This document shows positions 26,635 through 35,349 of a stretch of 47,250 nt of DNA, piece after piece; position 1 is the stretch's first letter, and the number at the start of each line of letters is the position of its first letter. A program made the position numbers and the translations under genes. Source of the DNA: Gemmatimonadetes bacterium SCN 70-22 (lineage in GTDB: Bacteria; Gemmatimonadota; Gemmatimonadetes; Gemmatimonadales; Gemmatimonadaceae). The DNA is taken from NCBI GenBank assembly GCA_001724275.1, contig MEDZ01000031.1:1-47250 (forward strand), given 5' to 3'. The notes below the pieces were generated by a model. That model did not search any database. It was not told the DNA's origin and was given only the letters and a program-made list of their open reading frames with translations.

Positions 26635-27442
26635 CGCGGCGGCCGCTGCCCCCGTCCCGCACCCGTCGTCGCCCGTCCGGCTCGACGTCAACACCTTCAT
26701 CGGCGGGTATCCCTTCCGTCACGTCCCGCATCCCGACCCCGAGGTCCTCGTCCGGGTCCTGGCGCGGGAGGGGGTGGCGCAGGCATGGGTGGGGCACCTC
26801 CCGACGGCCTTCCACCGCGACCCGGCGCCGGGCAACGCCGAGCTGTTGCGGGCGCTGGCGCCGCACGCGGCGGTGCTGCGCCCCGCGCCGGTGGTGCGCC
26901 CCGACTGGCCGGGGTGGCGCGAGTCGTTAGGCAGGCTGGTCGACGCCGGCGTCCCGGCCATCCGCGCCTACCCGCAGCTCTGGGGAATGGCCCCGGGCGA
27001 CGAGCGCCTGGCGGCGCTCGCCGAGGCGTGCGCCGGCGCGGGGCGTGCGCTCGTCCTGACGGTGCGTTTCGAGGACGTGCGCCAGCGCCACCCGCTCGAC
27101 GCGACCCCCGACCTCTCGGCCGCACACGTGCGGGCGCTGGCGCGGAGCGGGGGAGCGGGCCCCCTGGTGGTGACGGCGCCGTCGCGCGAGCTCGTCGAGG
27201 AAGTGCACTGGGGACTGACGCCCGCCGAGCGGGAGCACGTCTTCTACGATTTCAGTTGGATCTGGGGGCCGCCCACCGACGAGCTCGCGCAGCTGTTCCG
27301 CACCGTGGGGTCAGCGCGCTTCGTGTACGGGACGATGTGGCCGCTGCGATTGACGCAGGGCGCGCGTGCGAATCTGGCGTTGCTCCCGGCCGATGTGGCT
27401 GGCGTCGCGCTGGGCGATGCGTCACTCTTGCGACTCGCTTGA
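26627..27442 (+). CDS. Amidohydrolase-fold protein lacking the usual HxH metal motif
   Basis: 271 residues and related in layout to the preceding amidohydrolase. The first-strand motif is DVNTFIGGYPFRH in place of DxHxH, and the strand-8 motif GADI is replaced by YGTMWPL, so the usual metal site appears to be lost. Other features are AWVGHLPTAFHRDP, AGVPAIRAYPQLWG and VFYDFSWIWGPPTDEL. It may be a catalytically inactive partner or bind its cofactor differently. The ATG at 26627 lies inside the previous gene (8-nt overlap). I do not recognise a named family. Confidence 0.75.
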   Translation: MPNAAAAAPVPHPSSPVRLDVNTFIGGYPFRHVPHPDPEVLVRVLAREGVAQAWVGHLPTAFHRDPAPGNAELLRALAPHAAVLRPAPVVRPDWPGWRESLGRLVDAGVPAIRAYPQLWGMAPGDERLAALAEACAGAGRALVLTVRFEDVRQRHPLDATPDLSAAHVRALARSGGAGPLVVTAPSRELVEEVHWGLTPAEREHVFYDFSWIWGPPTDELAQLFRTVGSARFVYGTMWPLRLTQGARANLALLPADVAGVALGDASLLRLA

Positions 27443-27474
27443 CCGGTGTTCATTTTTCGCCGCTGTTTCGGGAT

Positions 27475-27494
27475 CTTGTGAAATCATTCACAAG
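27475..27494. promoter_or_regulatory. CRP/FNR-type palindromic operator upstream of actA
   Basis: Perfect inverted repeat CTTGTGAA-ATCA-TTCACAAG. Its core TGTGA-N6-TCACA (27477-27492) is exactly the consensus of CRP-family regulators and close to FNR-type TTGAT-N4-ATCAA only in spacing. It lies 41 nt before the actA ATG at 27536 in an AT-richer gap. The left half TTGTGA could itself act as a -35. Regulation of the respiratory operon by a CRP/FNR-family protein is inferred. Confidence 0.75.
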
Positions 27495-27535
27495 CCCGAA
27501 TCAATCACTCGGTTTCCCTCCCACCTCACGACTCG

Positions 27536-28177
27536 ATGACGAGCAGGCGCAAGTGGGCGCTGATCCCGGCGTTCTTCGCCATTGCCACGGCGGCGACCCT
27601 TCTGTCGGCCTATAGCGGCGCATCGTCGTCGCAGGGCTTCGCCCCGGTGCAGCCCATCGCATTCCCGCATCCCGTGCACGTGAAGACCCTCGGGATGAAC
27701 TGCCTGTACTGCCACTACAGCGCCAACAAGTCGCCCGACCCGGGGCTCCCGGCCGTCGGGACCTGCATGGGGTGCCACACGGTGGTGGGGCCGAACCGCC
27801 CGGCCATGGATGGCAAGCCGGCCCGCGTGAGCGAGCCGATCAAGACGTTGCAGACCTTCGCCCCCCCGGCGCAGGTCGACAAGTGGAAGGCGATTCCGTG
27901 GGTGCGCATTCACAAGCTCCCGGAGTACGTGCGCTTCCCGCACATGCGCCACGTGAGCGCCGGGGTCACCTGCCAGACGTGCCACGGGGCGGTGCAGGAG
28001 ATGGCCCAGGTGTCGCAGAACGCCTCGCTCAACATGGGGTGGTGCGTGAACTGTCACGTGAAGGGCTACAAGCTGAGTGATGGACTGCTGGCGGCCGGCG
28101 ACACGGTGGGGGCCAGGGCGGCCGCCAATGTGGAACCGAAGAAGGCGCGGTACGACTGCGCCATCTGCCACTACTGA
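27536..28177 (+). CDS. actA: Alternative complex III pentahaem cytochrome c subunit ActA
   Basis: 213 residues. One N-terminal membrane helix (about 8-25) anchors a periplasmic domain with five CxxCH motifs beginning at residues 56 (CLYCH), 77 (CMGCH), 146 (CQTCH), 170 (CVNCH) and 208 (CAICH). ActA passes electrons from the FeS protein ActB to ActE and on to the terminal oxidase. It is the first gene of actABCDEF, preceded by the palindromic operator. The ATG at 27536 lacks a strong Shine-Dalgarno sequence. The last haem motif lies only one residue from the C-terminus. Confidence 0.95.
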   Translation: MTSRRKWALIPAFFAIATAATLLSAYSGASSSQGFAPVQPIAFPHPVHVKTLGMNCLYCHYSANKSPDPGLPAVGTCMGCHTVVGPNRPAMDGKPARVSEPIKTLQTFAPPAQVDKWKAIPWVRIHKLPEYVRFPHMRHVSAGVTCQTCHGAVQEMAQVSQNASLNMGWCVNCHVKGYKLSDGLLAAGDTVGARAAANVEPKKARYDCAICHY

Positions 28178-28267: not shown

Positions 28268-31200
28268 ATGAGCCAGTCATCGGGGTCCGCGGGCGTCAAG
28301 CGCCGCGAGTTCCTCAAGGTTCTCGGCGCCGCCAGCGCCGTGACCACCACCATCGGATGTAGCCAGGAGAAGGTCGAGAAGCTCATCCCGTACCTGGTCT
28401 CCCCCGACCAGACGGTCCCGGGCGTCTCGACCTACTACAGCACCACCTGCCGTGAGTGCGCGGCGGGGTGCGGCGTGGTCGCCGAGGTCCGCGACGGGCG
28501 CGCCATCAAGCTCGAGGGGAATCCCGAGCACCCGGTCAACCGCGGCGCGCTGTGCGCGCGTGGCCAGGCGGCGCTGCAGGGGTTGTACAACCCCGATCGC
28601 TACCGGCAGCCGATGGTGCGCGAGGGAGGGAAGCTCGTCCCCACCACGTGGGACAAGGCGATCGCCCTCCTGGGCCAGAAGCTCGGGGAGGTGCGCGCCA
28701 GGGGACAGGGGCAGAACGTCGTCTTCATCGACGAGCACGCCTCGGGGACCTTCGGCGTCTTCCTCGACCAGTGGCTGGGCGCCTTCGGCTTCCCGGCGCA
28801 CGACCAGTACGACAGCGGCGCCGACCTGGCCCTGCGCGCGGCCAACACCGCGGCCTATGGCGTCGCCATGCCCGGCATCGACATGGCGGCGGCGTCGCTG
28901 GTCGTCTCGTTGGGCGCGGACTTCCTGGACGGGCGCGACGCCTCGGTCCCGATGCAGCTGGCGTTCGCCGATGCGCGGGCCCGGCTGCAGCATGCCCCGC
29001 GCTTCGTCTACGTCGGCCCGCGCCGCTCGCTCACCGGCCTCAACGCCGACGAGTGGATCGCCTGCACCCCGGGAAGCGAGGAAGTCATTGCCCGGGCGCT
29101 GCTGGGGGCGGTCGGCGGCGCTGGGGGCGCCACGATCGCCGAGGCGGCAGCCGCCAGCGGCGTCACCGAGGCCACGCTCCAGCGCCTCGCCGACGCGCTC
29201 AAGGGCGCACGCCCCAGCCTCGTCCTCTCGGGCGTCTCCACGCCGAACGCCGGCGTCGTGGCGACCCTCGCCGCCGACATCAACAAGGCGGCCGGCAACG
29301 TCGGCGTCACGGTCAAGCCGGGCGAGCCGATGGGCGGCTACAACGGCGCCGTCGGTGCCCAGCGGATGGCCGCCATCGCCGAGGCGGCCAATGCGGGGAA
29401 CGTCGCGCTCCTCTTCGTGCGCGGCGCCAACCCCGCCTACGACACGCCCAAGTCGGTCAAGTTCGCCGAGGCGCTGGCCAAGGTCCCGTTCAAGGTTTCG
29501 TTCTCGAGCTATCCCGATGAGACGTCGGAGCTGTGCGACCTGGTCCTCCCGGGAGACCACGCGCTCGAGTCGTGGGGCGACGCCGAGGCGAAGCCGGGCG
29601 TGATCTCGCTGCAGCAGCCGGTGATGGAGCGCATCTTCGACACGCGCGCCACCGCCGACGTCCTGCTCCAGCTCGCGCAGGGGGACCCGGCCATCGCCGG
29701 GCGCTTCGCGTGGAAGACGTATCGCGACTACCTCGTCAGCCGTTTCCCGGGCGGCGCCGCCGCCTTCACGCAGGCGCTGGCCACGGGCATGGCCAACGGC
29801 ACGCTGCCGCAGCGCGATGCGGCGGCCAGGCCGGCGCTCGCACCGGCCGCACCGGCGCCGATCGGCGGCGACGGCGACTACTTCCTCGTGGTGTATCCGC
29901 ACGCCGTGCTCGGCACTGGCGCCGGGGCCAACAAGCCGTGGCTGCAGGAGCTCCCCGACCCCGTCTCCAAGGTGCTGTGGCAGTCGTGGATCGAGATCCA
30001 CCCGCTCACGGCGCGCAAGCTCGGCGTCGCCGCCGGCGATCACGTCACGGTGCAGACGGCGGCGGGGAGCATCACCGCGCCGGCCTTCCCGTACCTCGGC
30101 ATCCGGCAGGATACCGTTGGTGTCGCGCTGGGGCAGGGGCACACGGGATACGGGCGCTACGCGAAGGACCTCGGGATCAACGCCCTCGATGCGTTAGGCG
30201 CCACCTGGAATGGTGCGGGGGCGCTGGCGCTCACGCAGTTCAAGGCGAGGGTGAGCAAGGCGGGGGCCCGCTCGGACCTCGTCACCACCGAGGGGTCGGC
30301 GCGCCAGCACGGGCGCGGGATCGCGCAGGCGATCACCGTCGCCGACCTGGTGGCCGGCCGCTTCAAGGAGGAGCAGCACGCCTTCCCGGGCGACGCCAAC
30401 CACGAGTTCCTCCCCGGCCTGCGGTCGCCGGTGGCCGCGGACGCCCAGGGTGACCTCGCCGACTCCACGGCGAAGGATCACGGGATGTATGCGCCGGACC
30501 ACTGGAGCGGGATGGCCAAGCGCCGCTGGGCGATGACCATCGACCTCGCGCGGTGCACCGGCTGCTCGGCGTGCGTCACGGCGTGCTACGCCGAGAACAA
30601 CATCCCGACGGTCGGGGCGCGCTGGCAGGGACGGTCGCTCCGTCCGGGTTCGGCGAGCGACGACAGCGCCTGGGATACGCGCCCGGGGGCCAACATCCTG
30701 AAGGGGCGCGAGATGAGCTGGCTGCGCATCGAGCGCTACTTCGAGGGGGGCGAGGACGGCTTGAGCGACTTCGAGGCGCGCTTCGTCCCGATGATGTGCC
30801 AGCACTGCGGCAACGCCCCGTGCGAGCCGGTCTGTCCGGTGTACGCGACCTATCACTCGCCCGACGGGCTCAACGTCCAGGTCTACAACCGCTGCGTCGG
30901 GACGCGTTACTGCTCCAACGGCTGCCCGTACAAGGTGCGCTACTACAACTGGCACGGGTACGGGGAGAAGGAGCGGCGCCAGTACGCCTTCCCCGAGCCG
31001 TTGCACCTGCAGCTCAACCCGGACGTCACCGTGCGCGGCAAGGGCGTCATGGAGAAGTGCTCCTTCTGCGTGCAGCGCATCCGCGAGGCCGAGAACCTGG
31101 CCAAGCTCGAGGGGCGCGAACTCAAGCCCGACGAGTTCACGACGGCCTGCGCCCAGGCGTGCCCGTCGAAGGCGATCGTCTTCGGTGACGCGGCCGACGA

Positions 31201-31324
31201 CAACTGGTCGGTGGCCAAGCTGGCCAAGGATGCACGCGGCTACCACGTGTTCGAGGAACTCAGTACCTACACCGCGGTGGTTTACTTGAAGCGCGTCAAT
31301 CATCCGGCGGGAGGAGCCAACTGA
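28268..31324 (+). CDS. actB: Alternative complex III iron-sulfur/molybdopterin-like subunit ActB
   Basis: 1018 residues. A Tat-type signal (KRREFLKVLG, then Cys31) is followed by a molybdopterin oxidoreductase-like domain (about 50-680) and a ferredoxin-like domain (about 755-1000). The latter binds several FeS clusters: CTGCSACVTAC (Cys763-773), CQHCGNAPCEPVC, CVGTRYCSNGC and CSFCVQR...CAQACPSKA. The large domain also keeps a CxxCxxxC-N27-C set (Cys61, 64, 68, 96), as in catalytic Mo enzymes, although ActB is not thought to bind molybdenum. GAGGAAG at about 28252 is the ribosome site. Its TGA overlaps the actC start (TGATG). Confidence 0.95.
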   Translation: MSQSSGSAGVKRREFLKVLGAASAVTTTIGCSQEKVEKLIPYLVSPDQTVPGVSTYYSTTCRECAAGCGVVAEVRDGRAIKLEGNPEHPVNRGALCARGQAALQGLYNPDRYRQPMVREGGKLVPTTWDKAIALLGQKLGEVRARGQGQNVVFIDEHASGTFGVFLDQWLGAFGFPAHDQYDSGADLALRAANTAAYGVAMPGIDMAAASLVVSLGADFLDGRDASVPMQLAFADARARLQHAPRFVYVGPRRSLTGLNADEWIACTPGSEEVIARALLGAVGGAGGATIAEAAAASGVTEATLQRLADALKGARPSLVLSGVSTPNAGVVATLAADINKAAGNVGVTVKPGEPMGGYNGAVGAQRMAAIAEAANAGNVALLFVRGANPAYDTPKSVKFAEALAKVPFKVSFSSYPDETSELCDLVLPGDHALESWGDAEAKPGVISLQQPVMERIFDTRATADVLLQLAQGDPAIAGRFAWKTYRDYLVSRFPGGAAAFTQALATGMANGTLPQRDAAARPALAPAAPAPIGGDGDYFLVVYPHAVLGTGAGANKPWLQELPDPVSKVLWQSWIEIHPLTARKLGVAAGDHVTVQTAAGSITAPAFPYLGIRQDTVGVALGQGHTGYGRYAKDLGINALDALGATWNGAGALALTQFKARVSKAGARSDLVTTEGSARQHGRGIAQAITVADLVAGRFKEEQHAFPGDANHEFLPGLRSPVAADAQGDLADSTAKDHGMYAPDHWSGMAKRRWAMTIDLARCTGCSACVTACYAENNIPTVGARWQGRSLRPGSASDDSAWDTRPGANILKGREMSWLRIERYFEGGEDGLSDFEARFVPMMCQHCGNAPCEPVCPVYATYHSPDGLNVQVYNRCVGTRYCSNGCPYKVRYYNWHGYGEKERRQYAFPEPLHLQLNPDVTVRGKGVMEKCSFCVQRIREAENLAKLEGRELKPDEFTTACAQACPSKAIVFGDAADDNWSVAKLAKDARGYHVFEELSTYTAVVYLKRVNHPAGGAN

Positions 31325-32766
31325 TGGCAACCTTCGCCGAACCGCTCCGGCCGAACGTCGCCTCGGCCAACGTGCAGCTCCCGGGGGTCCGGGACTACGA
31401 GCAGGTCGACAACGAGATCATCGGGACGCTCAAGCCAAGCGCCGGCTGGTTCGGCGCGCTGGGCATCGCGATCGCGCTCTTCCTCGTCGGCGCCGCGGCG
31501 TGGATCTACCAGATCTACTGGGGACTCGGGAACGCGGGCTACGCCCCGCCGGTGATGTGGGGGGTCTACATCATCACCTTCGTCTTCTGGGTCGGCATCG
31601 GCCACGCCGGGACGCTCATCTCGGCGATCCTCTTCCTCTTCCGCGCCGGCTTCCGCACCACGATCTACCGATGCGCGGAGGCGATGACGGTCTTCGCGGT
31701 CATGACGGCCGGCCTCTTCCCGATCATCCACATCGGGCGGCCGTGGAAGTTCTTCTGGCTGGTCCCCTATCCCAACTGGCGCCTCATCTGGCCGAACTTC
31801 AAGTCGCCGCTGGTGTGGGACGTCTTCGCGATCCTCACCTACCTCACGGTCTCCGCGACCTTCCTGTACGTGGGGCTCATCCCGGACATCGCGGTGCTGC
31901 GCGACCGCGAGACGAACCCGGTGCGCAAGCGGATCCTGGCCGTGCTGTCGCTGGGGTGGCGGAACTCGGAGCCGGAGTGGCGCCACTTCATGAAGATGTA
32001 CCTGTTCCTGGCGGCCTTCTCCACGCCGCTGGTGCTCTCGGTCCACTCGGTCGTGTCGTTCGACTTCGCCATGGCGCTCACGCCCGGATGGCACGCCACG
32101 ATCTTCCCGCCGTACTTCGTGGCCGGCGCCATCTTCTCGGGCATCGGGATGGTGTTCACGATCATCATCCCCATCCGGAAGTTCTTCAAGCTCGAGCACT
32201 ACGTCACCATCAACCACCTCGACGCGGCGGCCAAGCTGGCCCTCTTCACGTCGATGGTGGTCGGGTGCGCGTACCTGATCGAGTTCTGGGTCGCGTGGTA
32301 CTCCGGCGTGGCGGTGGAGCAGGACTACTTCTGGAATCGCGTCTTCGGCGAATGGTGGTGGGCCGCGTGGATCATGCTGACCTGCAACATGATCTTCCCG
32401 CTCTCGCTCTTCTCGCAGAAGCTGCGCCGCAACCCGACCTGGCTCTTCATCCTCTCGATCTTCATCAACATCGGGATGTGGTTCGAGCGGTTCGTGATCA
32501 TCGTCCCGTCGCTCTCGCACGAGTTCGAGCCCTGGCAGTGGGGGCACTACGCGCCGAGCTGGGTCGACGTCGCGATCCTCGTCGGGTCGTTCGGGTGGTT
32601 CTTCATGTGGTTCCTCCTCTTCATCAAGCAGCTCCCCGTGGTGGCGATCGCCGAGGTGAAGGAAATCGTCCCGCCCAAGCTGCGCGCCCATGCGCGCGGG
32701 CACGGGATCGACGCCAGCGGGCATCACCTCCCCTACGGCACCGAGACGCCGGGAGAATTCGACTGA
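31324..32766 (+). CDS. actC: Alternative complex III quinol-binding membrane subunit ActC (NrfD/PsrC family)
   Basis: 480-residue polytopic protein with about ten transmembrane helices, of the NrfD/PsrC family. Recognisable stretches are GVYIITFVFWVGIGHAGTLIS, LFPIIHIGRPWKFFW and SVHSVVSFDFAMALTPGWH. In the known complexes ActC binds menaquinol near its periplasmic face next to ActB and may contribute to proton translocation. The start ATG at 31324 overlaps the actB stop. The paralogue ActF lies three genes downstream. Confidence 0.95.
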   Translation: MATFAEPLRPNVASANVQLPGVRDYEQVDNEIIGTLKPSAGWFGALGIAIALFLVGAAAWIYQIYWGLGNAGYAPPVMWGVYIITFVFWVGIGHAGTLISAILFLFRAGFRTTIYRCAEAMTVFAVMTAGLFPIIHIGRPWKFFWLVPYPNWRLIWPNFKSPLVWDVFAILTYLTVSATFLYVGLIPDIAVLRDRETNPVRKRILAVLSLGWRNSEPEWRHFMKMYLFLAAFSTPLVLSVHSVVSFDFAMALTPGWHATIFPPYFVAGAIFSGIGMVFTIIIPIRKFFKLEHYVTINHLDAAAKLALFTSMVVGCAYLIEFWVAWYSGVAVEQDYFWNRVFGEWWWAAWIMLTCNMIFPLSLFSQKLRRNPTWLFILSIFINIGMWFERFVIIVPSLSHEFEPWQWGHYAPSWVDVAILVGSFGWFFMWFLLFIKQLPVVAIAEVKEIVPPKLRAHARGHGIDASGHHLPYGTETPGEFD

Positions 32767-33266
32767 TGCGACGCGGACTTGTGGCAGCGTTTCGTGAGAT
32801 CGACGCGACCTGCGACGCGATCGAAGCGCTGAAGAAGAAGAAGTACGAGTTCACCGTCTACACGCCCGCGCCACGGCACGAGATCGAGCACGCGGTGGCC
32901 GCGCCGATGAGTCCCGTGCGCCGCTTCACCCTGATCGGCGGATTGATCGGCGTGACCTTCGGCTACTGGATCGCCGTGTGGACCTCGGAGTACTGGCCGC
33001 TCGTCGTGGGCGGCAAGGCCATCGCCAGCTGGATCCCGTACACCATCATCGGCTTCGAAGTCATGGTGCTCGTCGGGGCCCTGTCGACCGTGGCCGCCAT
33101 GTTCATCAACTCGCGCATCCCGAAGATCACCGCCACGGTGGGCTTCGACCCGCGCTTCACGCACGGCGACTATGGCATCTACGTACAGGCGGCGCCCGAA
33201 CGGCTCAAGGAGGCCGAGGAGACGCTGCGCGCCCACGGTGCCGTCGACGTGAGGACCGAGTCATGA
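32766..33266 (+). CDS. actD: Alternative complex III subunit ActD (DUF3341)
   Basis: 166 residues. A cytoplasmic N-terminal region (FREIDATCDAIEALKKKKYEFTV, an ACT-like start) is followed by two transmembrane helices (about 54-74 and 92-115) and a C-terminal cytoplasmic tail ending LRAHGAVDVRTES. This is the DUF3341/ActD layout, a structural subunit of the membrane arm. The ATG at 32766 overlaps the actC stop (TGATG), and its own stop overlaps actE (ATGA). Confidence 0.93.
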   Translation: MRRGLVAAFREIDATCDAIEALKKKKYEFTVYTPAPRHEIEHAVAAPMSPVRRFTLIGGLIGVTFGYWIAVWTSEYWPLVVGGKAIASWIPYTIIGFEVMVLVGALSTVAAMFINSRIPKITATVGFDPRFTHGDYGIYVQAAPERLKEAEETLRAHGAVDVRTES

Positions 33267-34018
33267 TGCGTCGAGCAGACGGGACGTCGCGCAGACGGAA
33301 AGACGAGATGACGCGCCGAATCATGCCCACCGTCCGACGCTTCGCGCTCATCGCGCCGGCGGTCCTCTCGCTCACGGCGTGCGAGTGGTTCACCGACTTC
33401 AAGCGCCAGCCGATGGTGACCACCTGGGAGCAGGATTCGATCCTCAAGTCGGTGCGTGGCGCGCCGCAGGGATCGGTGCCGCGCACCGGGACCGCGGTGA
33501 GCGCCATGCAGGTGTCCTATGCCAGCCTCCCGTTCCAGATCGACACGATCGGGGCGCTGGCGCAGAACCCGACCCCGGTGACCGAGGCGTCGCTGGCCAA
33601 CGGGCACAAGTACTACGAGATCAACTGCGCCGTCTGTCACGGCGAGAAAGGTGATGGCATGGGGGCGGCCACCAGGTACGGCATCCCCCCCTTCAACCTC
33701 CTCCTGGACATGACGAAGAATCGCACCGACGGCTACATCTTCGGCATGATGCGCAACGGCCGCGGCCTGATGCCGTCGTACAACCGCATCGAGGAAGCCG
33801 ACCGCTGGGACGTGGTGAACTACCTGCGCGCCCTGCAAGGCCTGGTGACCGGTGTGCAGGTCGCGACCGGCCCCCTCGCGATGCCGGGGGTCAACGGCGA
33901 CAAGGTCCCGGGACCGACCGCGCTTGGTCCTAACCGCTGGGTGCCGCACGTGGCCCCGGGGCTCATCGGAACGCCGGGCGCCTCGAGCGAACCGGCGAAG
34001 ACGGGAGAACACGAGTGA
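33263..34018 (+). CDS. actE: Alternative complex III monohaem cytochrome c lipoprotein ActE
   Basis: 251 residues. A lipoprotein signal ends at LSLTAC (Cys40 from the ATG at 33263), followed by a class I cytochrome c domain with CAVCHGEKGDGMG (Cys122-His126) and a distal Met in GRGLMPSYNRI. ActE receives electrons from ActA and donates them to the oxidase or a soluble carrier. Start 33263 gives the ATGA overlap with actD; the ATG at 33308 would give a shorter, more typical signal and is an alternative. Confidence 0.92.
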   Translation: MMRRADGTSRRRKDEMTRRIMPTVRRFALIAPAVLSLTACEWFTDFKRQPMVTTWEQDSILKSVRGAPQGSVPRTGTAVSAMQVSYASLPFQIDTIGALAQNPTPVTEASLANGHKYYEINCAVCHGEKGDGMGAATRYGIPPFNLLLDMTKNRTDGYIFGMMRNGRGLMPSYNRIEEADRWDVVNYLRALQGLVTGVQVATGPLAMPGVNGDKVPGPTALGPNRWVPHVAPGLIGTPGASSEPAKTGEHE

Positions 34019-35349
34019 GCGCACATCACGGAGCAGATACGCCCTCCCGGCAGGACCTGGTCGCGATGATCCAGGCCAAGCCGGTGCCAAAGAACCTGCG
34101 CACGATCTCCCTGGTCCTCGCGGCCGTCGGCTTCGCCGTCTTCCTCGCGGGCGCGGTGATGGGCGAAGATCGCGTCTGGCAGGCGTTCCACGTCAACTGG
34201 CTCTTCTTCACCATCCCGGCGTCGGCCGGGGTGATGCTGGCCGCGGTGCAGCGCATCACCACGGCGCGCTGGTCGCGTTCGGTGATCCGCCTCGTCGAAG
34301 GGATGGTCGCCTGGCTCCCCGTCGCCTTCGTCCTCCTCCTCCTCACGCTCTTCATCGGGAAGGGACACATCTTCCCGTGGGTGCACGAGACGATCACGAT
34401 CCCGGAGAAGGCGAAGTGGCTCGACCCGACCTTCTTCACGCTCCGCGTGATCCTGGTCTTCGGCATCATCACCGCGCTCAGCCTCTGGTACACCTACACA
34501 TCGGTGCGCGTGGACGTGGGGCTCCTCCCGGAGTGGGGCGCCTCGTGGGCCAAGGGGATCCGTGACGGCATGCGCCGCGGCTTCGGGGAAGAGCGCCGCG
34601 AGATGCACTCGACCCACTCGCTCCAGGGACGCTTGGCCGTCTTCCTCGCCCTCGCCTTCGGCTTCGGCTGGACGATGCTCTCGTGGGACCTGTCCATGTC
34701 GATGGACTACCACTTCCAGAGCACGATGTACGGGTGGCAGGTCTTCATGGGCGGCTGGCTCGTGATGCTGATGATGTTCGCCCTCCTCCTGCGCTGGTGG
34801 CGCGACTTCATGGGGGCGCACGACGTCATCACCGACACCCAGCTCCACGATGTCGGCAAGCTCTGCTTCGCCTTCACCGCCTTCTGGGGATACCTGACCT
34901 TCTCGCAGTACCTCGTGATCTGGTACGGCAACTGGTCCGAGGAGACGCATCGCCTGCGCCTCATCCTCATCCAGCCGTGGACCGGCCTGAGCGTCTCGGT
35001 CGTCTTCCTGGTCTTCCTGGCGCCGTTCTTCGGCCTCCTGGGCAAGGCGCCCAAGCTCTACATGCCGACCATGGCGCTCTTCTCGGCGACGACGATGATC
35101 GGCATGTGGATCCATCGGTACCTCGAGATCTACCCGCCGATCTACGTCCAGACCGTCACGTCGGTCCCCTTCGGCATCTGGGAGATCGGGACGACACTCG
35201 GCTTCCTTGGCCTGTTCGGCTACGTGTACCTGCAGTTCATGGATGCCTTCCCGCGCATGCGCGTGGTGTGGATGACGTCGCCGCATCGCGACGAGATGCA
35301 GGTGCCCGTCGACCCGCGCACCATGGAGCCCCTCCCGGCGCACGAGTAG
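34015..35349 (+). CDS. actF: Alternative complex III membrane subunit ActF
   Basis: 444 residues, about ten transmembrane helices, distantly related to ActC. It has the ActF-type segments FHVNWLFFTIPASAGVMLAA, STMYGWQVFMGGW, DVGKLCFAFTAFWGYLTFSQYL and WYGNWSEET. It is one of the two large membrane subunits implicated in proton translocation. The start is GTG at 34015-34017, overlapping the actE TGA. No actG or oxidase gene follows; the operon ends at the hairpin at 35402. Confidence 0.94.
   Translation: MSAHHGADTPSRQDLVAMIQAKPVPKNLRTISLVLAAVGFAVFLAGAVMGEDRVWQAFHVNWLFFTIPASAGVMLAAVQRITTARWSRSVIRLVEGMVAWLPVAFVLLLLTLFIGKGHIFPWVHETITIPEKAKWLDPTFFTLRVILVFGIITALSLWYTYTSVRVDVGLLPEWGASWAKGIRDGMRRGFGEERREMHSTHSLQGRLAVFLALAFGFGWTMLSWDLSMSMDYHFQSTMYGWQVFMGGWLVMLMMFALLLRWWRDFMGAHDVITDTQLHDVGKLCFAFTAFWGYLTFSQYLVIWYGNWSEETHRLRLILIQPWTGLSVSVVFLVFLAPFFGLLGKAPKLYMPTMALFSATTMIGMWIHRYLEIYPPIYVQTVTSVPFGIWEIGTTLGFLGLFGYVYLQFMDAFPRMRVVWMTSPHRDEMQVPVDPRTMEPLPAHE

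Follow-up and report, generated by a model that had tools for sequence, protein, structure and literature searches.

A predicted Rex operator upstream of the alternative complex III operon of Gemmatimonadetes bacterium SCN 70-22

Introduction

Earlier work has established the repressor Rex and its operator, and has shown that Rex controls both its own gene and the genes of ATP synthase. In Streptomyces avermitilis, Rex binds the same motif as found here at the rex and atp promoters, and its DNA binding is lowered by NADH; its further targets in respiration are nuo, cyd and ndh2, and complex III is not mentioned (PMC5355995). The generalised consensus TTGTGAA-N4-TTCACAA used in that work is also quoted in a study of Caldithrix abyssi, in which a Rex consensus site was predicted 5' of rex and an alternative complex III is present as well; the predicted Rex-controlled operon of that bacterium is a hydrogenase cluster, and a Rex site at act was not described (PMC5317091). 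For alternative complex III itself, a KEGG-based annotation of Gemmatimonadota genomes gave a frequency of less than 10% (PMC9426454). The literature searched, with the main comparative survey of Rex lying outside it, contained no report that Rex controls alternative complex III and no account of the regulation of alternative complex III operons, nor did it yield a Rex regulon in Gemmatimonadota or anything on Rex in Desulfovibrio.

The locus described here resembles that of S. avermitilis in its operator consensus, and sites were found at rex and at the atp genes, for which autoregulation and direct control are described in that species. It differs in that alternative complex III is a predicted target and the ATP synthase is encoded in two operons (compared with PMC5355995). 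The other described class of operators to be considered is that of CRP, TGTGA-N6-TCACA, whose inner ten specified bases are common to the site studied here. Unlike CRP operators, this site is fixed to TTGTGAA/TTCACAA, has a free centre of four bases instead of six, and follows rex in its distribution. Since the CRP core is nested in the Rex motif, an inner match alone cannot separate CRP from Rex.

Results

The palindrome upstream of actA

The window, i.e. the whole analysed stretch of 47,250 nucleotides, carries at 27475-27494 the sequence CTTGTGAAATCATTCACAAG, read directly as two perfect 8-bp arms round a 4-nt centre. This element, CTTGTGAA-ATCA-TTCACAAG, was annotated without strand as a predicted Rex operator on the basis of its sequence, its consensus match and its conservation. 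The 14-base consensus core occupies 27476-27493, where the full-length reading is TTGTGAA-ATCA-TTCACAA and the consensus TTGTGAANNNNTTCACAA is matched perfectly (14/14 fixed bases). By chance, the exact 14 fixed Rex positions are expected about 2e-6 times per window and about 2e-4 times per 4.70-Mb genome. No other exact TGTGA-N6-TCACA occurs in the window. The palindrome stands 41 nt before the ATG of actA (27536), inside the intergenic control region (27443-27535, plus strand, 93 bp) between the upstream gene, with its stop at 27442, and actA; this gap has 52% G+C vs 71% for the window. The coordinates and base composition agree with the initial annotation, which had described a TGTGA-N6-TCACA palindrome 41 nt before actA in an AT-richer gap. 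Neither a sigma-70-like promoter nor a terminator signature was recognised in the scan round the operator. The spacing to the start codon would be compatible with a block of the promoter or of early transcription.

The genes downstream lie on the plus strand and constitute a genuine alternative complex III operon, the identity given in the initial annotation; the order is actA-B-C-D-E, with a fused ActB and an ActD. The multihaem cytochrome c subunit is encoded by actA (27536-28177; matches 6btm_A, 8k9e_A, 6f0k_A and 6lod_A), and the fused molybdopterin-like and Fe-S subunit by actB (28268-31324; matches ActB of solved alternative complex III structures, E down to 4e-133), so that both products match chains of the solved structures 6btm, 6f0k, 6lod and 8k9e. 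These are followed by actC (31324-32766), encoding an NrfD-like membrane subunit (PF03916, E 9e-29), actD (32763-33266; PF11821 'Alternative complex III, ActD subunit', E 5e-43) and actE, encoding a monohaem cytochrome c (PF13442 and PF00034). The interval of actE, 32978-34018, is that of the longest open reading frame, and translation probably begins at a later codon. The probable actF gene (34015-35349, start uncertain) encodes a multi-pass membrane protein and was assigned by operon position and hydrophobic sequence; its product had no match in Pfam. A homologue of ActA was found in 121/121 genomes of the phylum, against the much lower KEGG-based figure of PMC9426454, and ActA homology alone is no proof of the full complex in each of them.

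Rex and its predicted sites in the same genome

When the whole 4.70-Mb genome was searched at up to two mismatches to the Rex consensus, four sites were found, all of them with at most one mismatch, vs 0 for the reversed control pattern; single-base frequencies predict about 0.6 sites per genome at up to two mismatches and 0.02 at up to one. Two of the sites are perfect, one directly 5' of the sole rex gene and one 5' of actA, and two carry one mismatch, one 5' of atpA-atpG (the F1 operon) and one 5' of atpI and the Fo genes, atpF and atpH among them. The ATP synthase is split into two operons, F1 and Fo, with one Rex-type site each. The single-copy rex encodes a product that scores above the NCBIfam Rex equivalog cut-off, can be aligned with the Rex structure 1xcb along almost all of its length, and shares with the Thermus Rex of that alignment the segment QVRKDLS(F/Y)FGS in the DNA-binding domain.

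The atp-operon sites are located at G000:C52:5847-5864 (L009) and G000:C58:8026-8043 (L010), with orthologues L290-L309, and each shows one constant deviation throughout the order, TTGTGATAA... at atpA and TTGCGAA... at atpI. The atpA site reads TGTGATAAT, which could serve also as an extended -10 element; an overlap of operator and promoter is possible at this site.

Conservation at actA and co-occurrence with rex

A search of 99 genomes of this family found ActA in 96, and the analysis covered 90 upstream regions. Of these, 69 have before actA a Rex-type site that matches 12 or more of the 14 fixed bases, and in 62 the match is perfect, so the palindrome is kept in relatives, which is the conservation check that had been proposed for it. 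In the alignment of the 69 operators the arms are near invariant, the central four bases vary freely, an extra C and G at the outer ends are mostly retained, and hardly any other nearby column is conserved apart from a mildly conserved T-rich element about 20 bp 5' of the operator; no compensatory change was seen in the arms. The earlier view of the palindrome as operator-type is supported. At actA the site was found in no sampled genome of genera g13, g23 and g26, and it is absent from 3/3 complete upstream regions of g25. As the act site is missing in g13, g23 and g25 despite rex, Rex control of act is not universal in the family. Members of g23 (G022, G048, G069, G085 and G097) have 5-7 Rex sites, and rex was found in all except G069; having lost the actA site, they would not show act control by Rex.

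The cognate factor was examined in 121 genomes of the phylum at least 90% complete, the motif being counted at up to one mismatch. Both rex and the motif were present in 107 genomes and both absent in nine, with rex alone in two (G099, G104) and the motif without detected rex in three (G012, G069, G101). The association gives a Fisher p of 1.0e-9, genomes within one genus not being independent. Joint absence was found in five genera (g26, g48, g61, g63 and g79), for g26 and g63 in more than one genome. Genera g26 and g48, which have neither motif nor rex, encode strong CRP-type HTH genes (E about 1e-20 to 1e-21), which argues that a CRP protein is not what maintains the sites there. Genus g61 had no PF13545 match and g63 weak matches only, so both are uninformative on CRP versus Rex. 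Site presence does not follow the CRP-family gene, and the sites are gone where rex is gone (g26, g48).

Rex-type sites in other lineages

For twenty recurring one-mismatch sites of other genomes, the gene that follows was examined. The atpA-type sites were just 5' of atpA in 11/11 cases and the TTGCGAA-type sites 5' of an AtpI homologue in 7/9, the remaining two being without a match; the atpA and atpI sites are conserved at the order level. Other Rex-type sites in relatives precede clpX, an ETF gene and nuoA. The clpX gene, an unusual Rex target, has perfect sites upstream in genera g20 and g32 (L203, L204, L207).

A plastocyanin/azurin-like lipoprotein gene is preceded by a Rex site in many relatives (L188, L190, L191, L193-L195, L197-L199, L202, L205 and L206), and PF00127 was detected in all three of the products tested. 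In several genomes of the sister family f2 a perfect or near-perfect site stands at this cupredoxin gene instead of at actA, which is about 9-18 kb away; the Rex-linked cupredoxin is a possible electron carrier tied to alternative complex III. The actA site itself is patchy in f2, with 13/14 bases in G153, G165, G167 and G177 and 12/14 in G119, G121 and G107, and no perfect act site was found among the first 20 genomes outside the family. The simplest history is that act joined an older rex-atp regulon, mainly in this family. Genus g58 of the same class (G110, G131, G134, G135, G137, G138, G140 and G159; L153-L167) has 14-30 Rex consensus sites per genome vs 2-7 elsewhere, with differing central bases, and the regulon predicted from these sites is greatly enlarged.

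A scan with the ActB Fe-S region retrieved 80 act loci from many phyla, and 853 kb were searched. There were nine Rex-like palindromes (at least 12/14), eight of which lie just 5' of actA in seven loci of Acidobacteriota and Armatimonadota-type bins; eight of nine near actA corresponds to a binomial p of about 6e-8, computed after the pattern was seen. No Rex-like site was found in the act loci of Roseiflexus, Oscillochloris or Chloroploca.

Discussion

The computed evidence, namely the site with its twins, the conservation in relatives and the joint loss with rex, points to 27475-27494 as a predicted operator of Rex, the NADH/NAD+-sensing repressor, which very probably controls act alongside rex and both atp operons. 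What characterised Rex proteins do (PMC5355995) is the model for the DNA binding, the effect of NADH and the sign of the regulation proposed here. At a low NADH/NAD+ ratio, Rex would bind TTGTGAA-N4-TTCACAA 5' of actA and block act transcription, presumably by obstructing RNA polymerase. When NADH builds up, through a surplus of reductant or a shortage of electron acceptor, Rex would dissociate and alternative complex III would be made. The rex gene itself and the two ATP synthase operons would be under the same Rex.

The initial annotation had assigned the palindrome to a CRP/FNR-family regulator, and this assignment is not supported, given the perfect Rex match, the twin at rex and the co-loss with rex; the conserved outer T/A and inner A/T are Rex positions. 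That a cAMP-type CRP-family regulator binds TGTGA-N6-TCACA and controls act is very unlikely. In its favour, the actA site matches the CRP core, a search of the genome for such a gene, as the annotation had advised, found a CRP-family protein whose recognition helix has the classical sequence RETVSR, and besides the Rex-class sites the genome has four further exact copies of TGTGA-N6-TCACA. Selection keeps TTGTGAA/TTCACAA, two positions per half-site past the CRP core, and leaves the centre four free. The optimum of Escherichia coli CRP has A outside and T inside TGTGA, and the bases fixed at the actA site are the opposite. A perfect twin of the site stands at rex, and the motif-less genera g26 and g48 retain their strong CRP-type HTH genes. 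CRP/FNR as the main factor was rejected on motif extension, co-occurrence and footprint. A dual operator, at which Rex is the main factor and the CRP-family protein recognises the overlapping core as well, bringing in a second signal, is somewhat less improbable and still unlikely: a complete TGTGA-N6-TCACA lies inside the Rex sites and both proteins are encoded, so CRP cross-binding at actA is possible, but the conserved site has no feature needing a second factor, and in the remaining TGTGA-N6-TCACA sites the centre is G+C-rich or unrelated and the Rex extension is missing. With the CRP-family protein and these four non-Rex sites, a CRP regulon may exist beside the Rex regulon. The four non-Rex sites lie at G000:C32:11401-11476, G000:C32:17039 and G000:C78:7455 (L288, L289), two of them 60 bp apart. 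Elsewhere in the genome (G000:C19:5075-7303, L012), a cyclic-nucleotide-binding domain is fused to an apparent aspartate ammonia-lyase/fumarase-type enzyme in one open reading frame, which is unusual.

Use of the site by an FNR-type oxygen regulator is extremely improbable, the general likeness of CRP and FNR sites being all that speaks for it; the FNR consensus is TTGAT-N4-ATCAA, which TTGTGAA-N4-TTCACAA does not match, and the motif itself contradicts an FNR operator. There is hardly any chance that the element is an accidental palindrome or an RNA hairpin with no regulatory role. Any inverted repeat can fold in such a way, which is nothing specific, but across 69 loci the arms keep their sequence and show no compensatory change, and no terminator signature was seen, so a hairpin or terminator was ruled out; accident is contradicted by conservation, by the expectation of about 2e-4 such sites per genome and by the equal sites before rex and the atp genes. 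Of the link between respiration and cAMP, oxygen or redox state suggested earlier, the part concerning cellular redox state is plausible, whereas a cAMP- or oxygen-sensing CRP/FNR protein as the link is not supported. Sites of the form TGTGA-N6-TCACA should be compared with the longer Rex consensus before they are named CRP sites.

The predicted Rex operator offers a testable answer to how act expression is set, namely by NADH/NAD+ and in co-ordination with ATP synthase, and these predicted sites would extend Rex regulons to a phylum for which the literature searched gave none. It is likely that Rex in this family is a regulator of oxidative phosphorylation, a single NADH sensor acting on alternative complex III, on the F1 and Fo halves of the split ATP synthase and, in many relatives, on the cupredoxin, with act added to an older rex-atp regulon and with similar Rex-type sites also 5' of actA in some Acidobacteriota and Armatimonadota. 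With Rex acting on act and both atp operons, quinol oxidation would be adjusted in step with ATP synthesis, and reductant pressure would raise complex III and ATP synthase together.
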